This document shows positions 44,103 through 48,126 of a DNA stretch of 64,000 nucleotides, one piece after another (position 1 is the stretch's first letter; every line of letters begins with the position of its first letter). This DNA is from Miltoncostaea oceani. GTDB lineage: Bacteria > Actinomycetota > Thermoleophilia > Miltoncostaeales > Miltoncostaeaceae. The position numbers were made by a program, and so were the translations under genes. The notes under the pieces were generated by a model. The model searched no databases. It worked only from the letters and a program-made list of their open reading frames with translations, and was not told the DNA's origin. The stretch covers positions 3,423,001-3,487,000 of the forward strand of contig NZ_CP064356.1 of assembly GCF_018141545.1 (NCBI RefSeq), read 5' to 3'.

Positions 44103-44933
44103 TCAGGCCGCGGGGACGGGGATCCGGACCCGCTCGATCGTGCGCCCGCGGGGCGTCACCGCGCGGACGCCGATCGCCGTGCGGGTGGCGGTCACGACCA
44201 GGAAGTGGTGCTCCAGGGCGCACCGCCGCAGGCCGTCGGTGAACAGCCGGACGCAGGGGTAGACCTGCGCGCCGCCCCCGCCGGTCGTGACGTACGTGGT
44301 CCCGTCGGCCTCGATGCGCTCGTACATGTGGTTGTGGCCCTGCAGGACGAGCGCGACGCGCCCGCGGCGCAGCAGGGGGCCCCAGAGCCGGCGGGCGGTG
44401 TCGGCGGGCGGGTGGACCCCCGCGGTGCGCAACGGCTGGTGCACCGACACGATGCGCGCACCCGCCCACCGCGCGGACATCTCCCGGCGCAGGAACGCGA
44501 GCTGCCCCGGGTCGTCGGGGGCGTTGCCGTCGAGGACGACCACCCGCGCCGGCCCCGAGGTGAACGCGTAGTAGCGGCGGGGCGAGCGGAGCTGGACGGC
44601 GGTCCCGGTGCCCCCGAGGTCGTGGTTCCCCCACGTCGCCCGCCAGGGGACGCCGAGCCGGATCAGGCACCGCTCCGGTCGCGTCCACGTCGCGTCGGTG
44701 GCGGCCCCGGCGGGGTAGAAGTTGTCGCCCGTCGTGAGGACGAAGGCGAACGGCGCGCGGCGGGCCTCCCCGCACATGCGGCGGGTGACGGCCGCCTGGG
44801 CGGCCGACCCGTCCCCCCAGTCGCCCTTCACCACGAAGCGGACCGCGTCCGCGGGTGGCGCAGGGACGCCGCCCGCGGGCGCCGCTGCGGCGATGCCCGC
44901 CGCGGCGAGCAGGCCGGCCAGCGCGGCGCTCAC
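44103..44933 (-). CDS. Secreted metallophosphoesterase
   Basis: 276 aa calcineurin-like (purple-acid-phosphatase-like) phosphoesterase with an N-terminal signal peptide (ALAGLLAAAGIAAAAPAGG). Metal-binding motifs KGDWGDGS, TTGDNFYPAG, WGNHDLGG, IVSVHQPL and LQGHNHMYER are all present. It probably hydrolyses phosphate esters outside the membrane. GTG overlaps the stop of the small upstream gene as GTGA. The stop codon forms a short hairpin with the convergent MerR-like gene's stop (44094-44109). Confidence 0.88.
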   Translation of the reverse strand: MSAALAGLLAAAGIAAAAPAGGVPAPPADAVRFVVKGDWGDGSAAQAAVTRRMCGEARRAPFAFVLTTGDNFYPAGAATDATWTRPERCLIRLGVPWRATWGNHDLGGTGTAVQLRSPRRYYAFTSGPARVVVLDGNAPDDPGQLAFLRREMSARWAGARIVSVHQPLRTAGVHPPADTARRLWGPLLRRGRVALVLQGHNHMYERIEADGTTYVTTGGGGAQVYPCVRLFTDGLRRCALEHHFLVVTATRTAIGVRAVTPRGRTIERVRIPVPAA

Positions 44934-45291: not shown

Positions 45292-45361
45292 TATAGTCTC
45301 GGACCTGCCGGAGCCCGGTCGCTCCGGAACGCTTGCGTGCCGCAACCTCCGGAGGTCCAGG
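45292..45361 (+). promoter_or_regulatory. rpsF operon -10 box and leader
   Basis: TATAGT (45292-45297) is a strong -10; no clear -35 is seen. The leader of about 58 bases ends in GGAGG (45351-45355), placed six bases before ATC 45362. It is C/G-rich with repeated CCGGA/CCGGAG words that could fold, possibly a site for S6:S18 autoregulation, which is not shown here. Confidence 0.55.
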
Positions 45362-45784
45362 ATCACCCCGTACGAGATCATGATCATCCTCAATCCCGAC
45401 GCGGATGAGGAGCAGCAGCAGGAGATCCTGGAGAGGGTCCAGCAGCTCATCACGGACGGTGGCGGCACCGTCGACCACGTCAACGACTGGGGTCGGCGCA
45501 AGATCACCTTCCCCATGGAGAAGCGGCCCGACGGCCGCTACGTGGTCATCACCTGCCAGGGCGAGCCCACGTCCCTGCCCGAGATCGAGCGGGTGCTCTC
45601 GATCAACAAGGGGGTCGTCCTGCGCGCCCTCTTCATCCGCCTCAACCACAACGAGGCCGAGCGGGCACGCGCCACCGGCGCCCCCGCACCCGTCGACACC
45701 CACCCGGAGCGCGAGGACCGGCCGCAGCGCGGCCGTCCCGGCGGTCGCGGCGGCGGTGGCGGCGGCCGGCGCGGCCCCCGCTAG
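45362..45784 (+). CDS. rpsF: 30S ribosomal protein S6, apparent ATC start
   Basis: 140 aa. The S6 fold is complete: TPYEIMIILNPDADEEQQQEILERVQQLI, then RKITFPMEKRPDGRYVVITCQG and LSINKGVVLRALFIRLN. A Gly/Arg-rich tail extends the C-terminus. S6 proteins begin M-x-x-Y-E; here the Met position is ATC. The frame has no ATG, GTG or TTG near it upstream, and GGAGG stands six bases before the ATC. The next ATG (45380) would delete part of the first beta strand. First gene of the rpsF-ssb-rplI-dnaB-purA run. Confidence 0.9.
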   Translation: MTPYEIMIILNPDADEEQQQEILERVQQLITDGGGTVDHVNDWGRRKITFPMEKRPDGRYVVITCQGEPTSLPEIERVLSINKGVVLRALFIRLNHNEAERARATGAPAPVDTHPEREDRPQRGRPGGRGGGGGGRRGPR

Positions 45785-45790
45785 CCCGAC

Positions 45791-46279
45791 ATGCCCGCCG
45801 ACCTGAACCGCGTCACCCTGGTGGGGCGCCTGACGCGTGATCCGGAGCTGCGCCACACCGGTGGCGGGGACCCGATCTGCTCGATCCGCCTGGCGTGCTC
45901 GAGCCGTGGACGCGGCGACGACGGCCAGTGGACCGACAAGCCCAACTACTTCGACGTGACGGTCTTCGGCCGTCAGGCCGAGACCGCCTCGACGTACCTC
46001 GCCAAGGGACGGCGGATCGGCGTCGACGGTCGCCTGTCGTGGCGTGAGTGGCAGGCACAGGACGGCAGCAAGCGCCAGTCCGTCGAGGTGATCGCCAACG
46101 ACGTCTTCTTCCTCGACAGCCGCGGCGACGGCGAGGGCGGCGGCGGTGGCGGTGGGTTCCCGGCGTCGCAGGGATCCGGGTGGAGCCCCGCCCCCGCGGG
46201 TGGCGGCGACCTGCCGGTGGACCGCAGCGACATGAAGCCGCAGCCCGCGCGCTCGGACGACGACGACATCCCCTTCTAA
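45791..46279 (+). CDS. ssb: Single-stranded DNA-binding protein
   Basis: 162 aa. N-terminal OB fold (LNRVTLVGRLTRDPELRHTGGGDPICSIRLAC, then PNYFDVTVFGRQAETASTYLAKGRRIGVDGRLSWREW), a Gly-rich flexible linker, and the acidic C-terminal peptide DDDDIPF that recruits replication and repair partners. It lies 6 bases after rpsF. Confidence 0.97.
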   Translation: MPADLNRVTLVGRLTRDPELRHTGGGDPICSIRLACSSRGRGDDGQWTDKPNYFDVTVFGRQAETASTYLAKGRRIGVDGRLSWREWQAQDGSKRQSVEVIANDVFFLDSRGDGEGGGGGGGFPASQGSGWSPAPAGGGDLPVDRSDMKPQPARSDDDDIPF

Positions 46280-46297: not shown

Positions 46298-46750
46298 ATG
46301 CAGGCGATCCTTCTGACTGAGGTCGAGGGGCTCGGCGAAGCCGGGACCGTCGTCAACGTCGCGCGCGGCTACATGCGCAACTTCCTCCTCCCCCGCGGCA
46401 TGGCCGAGGTGGCGACCCCGGCGCGCATCGCCGAGGTGCAGCGCCGCGAGGAGGCACGCAGGGCCGCGGCGATCCGCGCCGTGGAGCAGTCCAAGGAGCT
46501 CGTGGACCTGCTCAGCCGCACCATCCTCACCCTCAAGGCGAAGGCCGGCGACGACGGCCGCCTCTTCGGCTCGATCACCTCCGCCGACGTGGCCACCGCG
46601 ATCAAGGAGGCCCGCGGCGTGACCGTGGACCGCCGGAGCATCACGGTGGAGCCCCCCATCCGCGCGGTCGGCACCTACTCCGTCCCGATCGAGCTGGCCC
46701 CCGGGCTGACGACCGAGGTGAAGACCATCGTCAGCCCGCTGATCGACTGA
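46298..46750 (+). CDS. rplI: 50S ribosomal protein L9
   Basis: 150 aa. N-terminal L9 signature ILLTEVEGLGEAGTVVNVARGYMRNFLLPRGMAEVAT, then a long connecting helix and the C-terminal rRNA-binding domain (DGRLFGSITSADVATAIKEA). It follows ssb by 18 bases. The gene for S18 (rpsR), which usually lies between ssb and rplI, is absent here. Confidence 0.97.
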   Translation: MQAILLTEVEGLGEAGTVVNVARGYMRNFLLPRGMAEVATPARIAEVQRREEARRAAAIRAVEQSKELVDLLSRTILTLKAKAGDDGRLFGSITSADVATAIKEARGVTVDRRSITVEPPIRAVGTYSVPIELAPGLTTEVKTIVSPLID

Positions 46751-46782: not shown

Positions 46783-48126
46783 GTGGCCACGTCGTCGGAG
46801 AGCGTCCCGCCCCCGCAGAACGCGGAGGCCGAGGCGATGTTGCTCGCCAGCCTCATGGAGGTCGACGCGTACGTCGCCGAGGCCCAGGGGATGCTCGACG
46901 CGGAGGACTTCTACCGCGAGGGGCACCGGGCGGTGTACCGCGCCATCCAGGCGCTGTTCCAGACCGGGGAGCCCGTCGAGCCGATCACGGTGATCGAGCA
47001 GCTCACCAAGAACGGCGAGCTCGACGCCGCGGGCGGGCGCGGCGGCGTGCTCGACCTGATGGAGACCCCCTTCATCGCGGCGAGCTACAAGAGCTACGCC
47101 GAGATCGTCCGCGACGCCTCGACCCAGCGGCGGCTGCTGCGCGTCGGGCAGGAGATCGAGCGGATGATCGCCCAGCGCGAGGGCGAGACCACGGCGATGC
47201 TCCAGGACGCCGAGACGCTCGTCTACGAGCTGTCGCAGAAGGGCGTCCGCGGGGACTTCACCCGCGCCGACAAGCTCGTCATCAAGGGCCTCGAGCGCCT
47301 CACCGCGGCCGAGGAGGCCGGCGGCGGCGTGGTCGGCGTGCCCACCGGCTTCATCGACCTCGACAAGGTCGTCGGCGGGCTCCAGGCGGGCAACATGGTC
47401 GTCGTCGCCGCCCGCCCCAGCATGGGCAAGACGGCGCTGGCCCTCGGCATCGCCGAGAACGCCGCCCTCACCCAGAACCTCGCCGTCGCCGTGTTCAGCC
47501 TCGAGATGAGCGGCGACGAGCTGATCCAGCGCCTCCTGTCGTCGGTCGCGATCGTCGACGCCGGACGCATCCGCGCCGGGCGGCTCGCGCCCGAGGACTG
47601 GTCGCGCATCGGCCGCGCCGCCGACCGCCTGTCCGCCGCCCGGCTCTACATCGACGACTCCGAGGGCGTCACCGTCGGCGAGATGCGGACGAAGCTGCGC
47701 CGCCTCAAGAGCCGCGACGGCCTCGACCTGCTGATCGTCGACTACATCCAGCTGATGGAGGGCAACCGCGGCCGCAAGGACGAGAACCGCGTCCAGGAGA
47801 TCTCCGCGATCTCGCGGAACCTGAAGATGCTGGCGCGCGACCTCGAGGTGCCGATCATCTGCGTCTCGCAGCTCAACCGCTCGCCGGACTCCCGCAACGA
47901 CAAGCGCCCGATGCTGTCGGACCTGCGCGAGTCGGGCGCGATCGAGCAGGACGCCGACCTCGTGCTGATGATCTACCGGGACGACTACTACAACCCGGAG
48001 ACGTCCGAGGACAAGGGACTCGCCGAGGTGATCGTCGCCAAGAACCGGCACGGGCCCACCGACCGCGTGAAGCTCACGTTCCGCGGCAGCTACGCCAAGT
48101 TCGACAACCTGGACCGGGATCACTGA
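46783..48126 (+). CDS. dnaB: Replicative DNA helicase DnaB
   Basis: 447 aa hexameric helicase. N-terminal domain PPQNAEAEAMLLASLMEVDAYVAEA; RecA-like domain with Walker A AARPSMGKTALAL, FSLEMSGDELIQRLLSS, Walker B LLIVDYIQLM, and the arginine-finger region SQLNRSPDSRNDKRPMLSDLRESGAIEQDADLVLMIYRDDYY. There is no intein, although DnaB is a common intein host. GTG start with SD GAGGAA. Confidence 0.97.
   Translation: MATSSESVPPPQNAEAEAMLLASLMEVDAYVAEAQGMLDAEDFYREGHRAVYRAIQALFQTGEPVEPITVIEQLTKNGELDAAGGRGGVLDLMETPFIAASYKSYAEIVRDASTQRRLLRVGQEIERMIAQREGETTAMLQDAETLVYELSQKGVRGDFTRADKLVIKGLERLTAAEEAGGGVVGVPTGFIDLDKVVGGLQAGNMVVVAARPSMGKTALALGIAENAALTQNLAVAVFSLEMSGDELIQRLLSSVAIVDAGRIRAGRLAPEDWSRIGRAADRLSAARLYIDDSEGVTVGEMRTKLRRLKSRDGLDLLIVDYIQLMEGNRGRKDENRVQEISAISRNLKMLARDLEVPIICVSQLNRSPDSRNDKRPMLSDLRESGAIEQDADLVLMIYRDDYYNPETSEDKGLAEVIVAKNRHGPTDRVKLTFRGSYAKFDNLDRDH

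Follow-up and report, generated by a model that had tools for sequence, protein, structure and literature searches.

The gene rpsF, which encodes ribosomal protein bS6, appears in Miltoncostaea oceani to begin at ATC. Codons such as ATC and ATT are normally rejected as starts by ribosomes. The locus, contained in a window of 64,000 nucleotides (the whole stretch of DNA analysed, positions 3,423,001 to 3,487,000 of contig NZ_CP064356.1), raises the question of whether ATC is the true site of initiation and, if so, whether so weak a start is tolerated or kept by selection.

Position of the rpsF start codon in the window

The rpsF coding sequence (45362..45784, forward strand) specifies a protein of 140 aa that scores 70.7 bits against TIGR00166 (cut-off 42.9) and also exceeds the cut-off of PF01250. 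Residues 3-95 align to positions 3-94 of the 95 in the NCBIfam profile TIGR00166, over its curated cut-off, indicating a full-length bS6. The gene stands first in the order rpsF-ssb-rplI-dnaB. It is followed on the same strand by ssb (45791..46279, TIGR00621), the next gene of the operon, and by rplI (bL9; 46298..46750, TIGR00158, residues 1-147 on profile positions 1-147), both of which start at ATG, and by dnaB (46783..48126, TIGR00665), which starts at GTG.

The frame around the proposed start reads ...CCGGAGGTCCAGG ATC ACC CCG TAC GAG ATC ATG ATC ATC CTC..., and the N-terminus encoded from ATC (45362..45364, forward strand) is (M)TPYEIMIILNPDADEE... In phmmer alignments to solved structures, residue 2 of the query falls on residue 2 in mycobacterial bS6, and in most other bS6 chains residue 3 falls on residue 3, so that ATC is exactly codon 1, occupying the place of Met1 elsewhere, as the original prediction had proposed. 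A Shine-Dalgarno sequence, GGAGGT (45351..45356, forward strand), is found 5-6 bases 5' of ATC; its first five bases, GGAGG (45351-45355), are separated from the codon (45362-45364) by six bases, in agreement with the spacing initially described.

Initiation at another site, either the downstream ATG or an unrecognised upstream codon, is the solution that standard gene callers are forced to adopt, and a Met does follow Tyr-Glu-Ile in most members of the window's family. The evidence makes this very improbable. No in-frame ATG, GTG or TTG is present over 60 codons 5' of the window's ATC, which bears out the claim that none lies nearby; the nearest is a GTG at 44855, and the frame extends that far only because GC-rich DNA contains few stops. 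The next in-frame ATG (45380..45382, forward strand) was rejected as a start, since it falls within strand 1, the first beta strand that it had been expected to cut, and has no Shine-Dalgarno at a fitting distance; the observed spacing fits codon 1 only. Besides the homology that places Met1 at ATC, the Tyr-Glu/Gln-Ile that follows codon 1 is conserved with synonymous changes, relatives have in-frame stops just upstream with no NTG between, and several sister-family genes with a CTG start have no Met at the place equivalent to ATG 45380.

Codon 1 of rpsF in the family and across the phylum

To read the same codon in relatives, rpsF was located in 38 of 41 close relatives, in 281 of the 300 class-level genomes and in 291 of the 296 covering the phylum; about 180 start regions were fetched, and codon 1 was read three codons 5' of the Tyr in the Tyr-Glu motif. 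In the window's own family (f1, 27 genomes) codon 1 is ATC in 21 and ATT in 4 (25/27 together) and GTC in one, and both other genomes of the same genus with a match have ATC. The original prediction had proposed looking for ATG or GTG at this codon in relatives: ATG, GTG or TTG occurs there in 0 of the 27 genomes. In the remaining genome (L057) the ATC is shifted one codon earlier and a competing in-frame ATG is present six codons before the Tyr, suggesting that its rpsF may have reverted to an ATG start. The agreement on ATC or ATT across f1 is far beyond chance. GGAG or GGAGG precedes the codon by 5-8 bases in 25 of the 27 genomes; in genus g2 the Shine-Dalgarno is just GGAG, so a strong Shine-Dalgarno is not always there to compensate for the weak start. 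The GTC belongs to L061, one of two S6 matches (L061 and L062) in a single genome (G014), for which 7% contamination is recorded.

Eleven f1 genomes (L015-L020, L027, L028, L061, L064, L065) show a stop in the same frame 8-27 codons 5' of codon 1, with no NTG from that stop to the S6 fold, which excludes both an upstream start and a sequencing error. The idea that an ordinary ATG was altered by an error of sequencing or assembly is further refuted by the independent assemblies of 26 other species, which have ATC or ATT (or GTC) at or adjoining this codon, and it retains practically no credibility. Comparison of sequences strongly supports ATC as the start site.

Non-canonical codons are also found outside f1. 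In the sister families, codon 1 is ATC in 7, ATA in 2 and ACG in 2 genes of f2, ACG in 9/9 of f6, CTG in 11 and TTG in 2 of f4, and ATC in 2 and ATG in one of f9, while f3 has mostly GTG and f8 GTG. Several f4 genes contain a TGA inside the Shine-Dalgarno and lack a downstream Met, leaving CTG as the only reasonable start. The Shine-Dalgarno of f2, f4 and f6 is AGGAGGTGA, and f2, f6 and f9 have a GTG inside the Shine-Dalgarno itself, an alternative start candidate by sequence. In two unrelated families of the phylum, codon 1 is ATC in 7, ATA in 5 and ATT in one (f23, n=18, in which two further genes probably start at an ATA four codons further upstream) or CTG, TTA and TTG (f19). Nine f4 genes and about a dozen of f23 are devoid of in-frame ATG, GTG or TTG from the last stop (or over 60 codons) to the S6 fold. 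Elsewhere, in other classes and most of the phylum, ATG, TTG and GTG prevail. Families f5, f7, f11 and f12 have a different S6 N-terminus without a Shine-Dalgarno, starting at ATG in f7, f11 and f12, and their rpsF mRNA is probably leaderless.

In a weakly resolved S6 tree of 90 columns, f1, f2, f4 and f6 form one branch (support 86/83) in which 58 of 60 members are non-canonical. The canonical/non-canonical label requires seven changes over the whole tree, six of them being forced by well-supported branches. Parsimony on a second tree gave 29 codon changes, with frequent exchange between near-cognates and one ACG-to-ATG change that depends on the rooting. These label and codon changes make it likely that the non-canonical rpsF start had more than one origin, the codon shifting yet staying weak.

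Leader, rpsR position and start codons of other genes

A predicted promoter -10 box, TATAGT (45292..45297, forward strand), corresponds to a TATANT conserved across f1, where the leader is short and the start codon follows this box by 53-100 bases; from the presumed transcription start, the rpsF 5' leader of the window spans 45304..45361 (forward strand). No common RNA structure of the f1 leaders was recovered with RNAalifold. A TATANT box is also seen close 5' of the rpsF start in many of L075-L089 (f7, f12) and L071-L074 (f5, f11).

The leader of f2, f4, f6, f19 and f23 has the form CACYCCUGCUCC-loop-GGGGCCGCnnnAGACCGnAGGAGGUGA, with an outer stem that contains the Shine-Dalgarno and two stems that covary, 5 of 13 pairs being changed on both sides. 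Covarying rpsF leaders that would sequester the Shine-Dalgarno occur in f2, f4, f6, f9, f19, f23 and others (e.g. L004:1429-1497), and the covariance model of the sister-family leader (R1) finds matches in further families of the phylum. The sister-family leader matches the S6:S18 rpsF leader already described, in which the Shine-Dalgarno lies within the H1 stem (PMC4647458), and we infer that S6:S18 would bind there. Unlike these sister families, in which a covarying leader, a Shine-Dalgarno stem and a CCG site are found together, the window and f1 show no such combination: their search with R1 gave no credible rpsF leader, the single match being a chance-like one of 23 bases in L015. Rfam searches of the window and its relatives returned no leader family, and the members of the sister-type leader tested matched no family of Rfam 15 at E of 5 to 10. 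In f1, rpsR is moreover outside the rpsF operon (in the window's own genome S18 is at 2853775-2853924 of G000:C1 and rpsF at 3468371); it is found about 1-2 kb from rpsF in f2, f3, f4, f6 and f7.

A general loosening of start codons in the window's genome was not seen in its S10-spc ribosomal genes, where ATG, GTG or TTG stands at the expected codon or close to it. When 18 of these genes were evaluated in six relatives, 103 of 108 orthologues passed an automatic start test, including 54/54 from three f1 genomes. Five failed: L22 and L5 of G027 have an ATG displaced by a few codons, whereas the other three (G034, G027) are poor local alignments, misaligned or affected by domain insertions.

The own genome contains an initiator anticodon stem of the ordinary type, GGGCTCATAACCC. 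No dedicated GAU-anticodon initiator tRNA was found in this genome, and matches in some relatives are candidates only. A 59-base tRNA match with GGGCTCATAACCC (G000:C1:2913938-2913996) is possibly a truncated copy of the initiator tRNA, the full-length form of which is at 2908662, about 5 kb away. The second contig (C2) carries dense tRNA arrays (351661-362802, 489089-502221 and 671024-671634; L150, L156, L162, L174, L179) with many isoacceptors and duplicated Arg and Ile, and the genome as a whole has 85 tRNA matches.

The ATC could be the true start and yet have no regulatory role, if slow growers can do without strong initiation of rpsF, the codon being left to drift. Codon 1 indeed varies freely among near-cognates, and the loss from f1 of both the S6:S18 leader and the rpsR of the operon could mean that control has decayed. 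Under drift, however, a single base change should often produce ATG, GTG or TTG, which is difficult to reconcile with the 58 of 60 non-canonical members of the f1, f2, f4 and f6 branch; in addition, the other ribosomal genes examined in these genomes keep NTG, and the non-canonical start recurs in f23 and f19. Tolerance of this kind is considered unlikely, if still worth weighing.

A proposed start-codon brake on S6 synthesis

The preferred reading, with an estimated probability of about 0.72, is that rpsF has a near-cognate AUC start, selected for its weakness, which would throttle the gene through the Shine-Dalgarno and IF3. The ordinary initiator fMet-tRNA(CAU), placed by the Shine-Dalgarno, would read AUC through a third-position mismatch; the weak start would keep initiation on rpsF low and dependent on the Shine-Dalgarno duplex and on the rejection of near-cognate codons by IF3; and synthesis of S6, perhaps together with a coupled ssb-rplI, would be throttled to match the state of the translation machinery. 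Selection would maintain a near-cognate start in f1 and its sister families as the codon drifts among ATC, ATT, ATA, ACG and CTG, and comparison across these families supports such selective retention of a weak start. By analogy with known systems we infer the near-cognate reading by fMet-tRNA, the low initiation rate and the IF3 sensitivity; in E. coli, a CUG start gives about 0.9% of the AUG yield (PMC11497404). The overall pattern suggests that S6 production is deliberately throttled. In the sister families the weak start would sit beside an S6:S18-type leader that pairs with the Shine-Dalgarno; in f1, where both this leader and a neighbouring rpsR are missing, the brake on translation may now lie mainly in the start codon.

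The rpsF gene shares the features of conserved non-canonical starts, namely a non-NTG codon 1, conservation across species without AUG and a Shine-Dalgarno at working distance. As in infC, with its AUU, AUC or AUA start, a near-cognate codon is conserved in a translation gene, AUG is avoided and a Shine-Dalgarno is present, and the comparison with infC made at the outset holds in the sense of a start that would work alike. Unlike infC, rpsF specifies a ribosomal protein, which would make IF3 a cross-regulator and not an autoregulator. The infC of f1 itself begins with TTG or GTG, and many f1 genomes have an in-frame TGA or TAG a short way 5' of that codon; in this family it is thus rpsF that has the start type usual for infC. 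In other families, infC likely starts at ATA in f4 (L116-L118) and has an apparent GTC start in f6 (L121, L140), 7-8 bases 3' of GGAGGTG.

The GTC start of Streptomyces sigR, which is repressed by IF3 (PMC5472188), is likewise an actinobacterial, conserved non-canonical start beside a Shine-Dalgarno and invisible to gene callers, but sigR is a stress sigma factor in one genus, whereas rpsF is a ribosomal protein gene affected over several families and codons. Conserved near-cognate starts are also known in ccpN (AUA) and cvfC1 (AUU) of S. aureus and B. subtilis; in S. aureus they lower the yield, and an extended Shine-Dalgarno guides initiation (PMC13009471). These genes encode regulatory or small proteins, in contrast to rpsF, and the Shine-Dalgarno of f1 rpsF is just GGAGG(T). 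The kind of start codon is already known from infC, sigR and ccpN; its conserved and recurrent use in a ribosomal-protein gene appears to be new within the literature searched (subscription papers being outside its scope), which contained no published rpsF with a non-canonical start.

Control might instead arise from ribosome composition, if 30S subunits short of S6 were less strict about start codon or Shine-Dalgarno and so preferred rpsF. The platform of the 30S subunit, which holds the anti-Shine-Dalgarno, is lined by bS6, bS18 and bS21, and in Flavobacterium ribosomes deficient in bS21 autoregulate rpsU (PMC9976891), yet this analogous case works through Shine-Dalgarno pairing and not through the start codon, and composition feedback is considered improbable for rpsF. 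A broader proposal, advanced tentatively, is that rpsF of many Actinomycetota carries a conserved, repeatedly evolved start-codon brake, made of any near-cognate but AUG, whereby S6 output would read either the activity of IF3 or the proportion of 30S subunits deficient in S6, amounting to an assembly feedback exerted by way of start-codon discrimination.

A core ribosomal-protein gene is the least expected place for a start worth a few per cent of AUG. In these lineages, gene callers limited to ATG, GTG and TTG must put the N-terminus of S6 in the wrong place, and rpsF provides a natural series at one homologous codon (ATC, ATT, ATA, ACG, CTG, GTG and ATG) for tests of start-codon discrimination in vivo.
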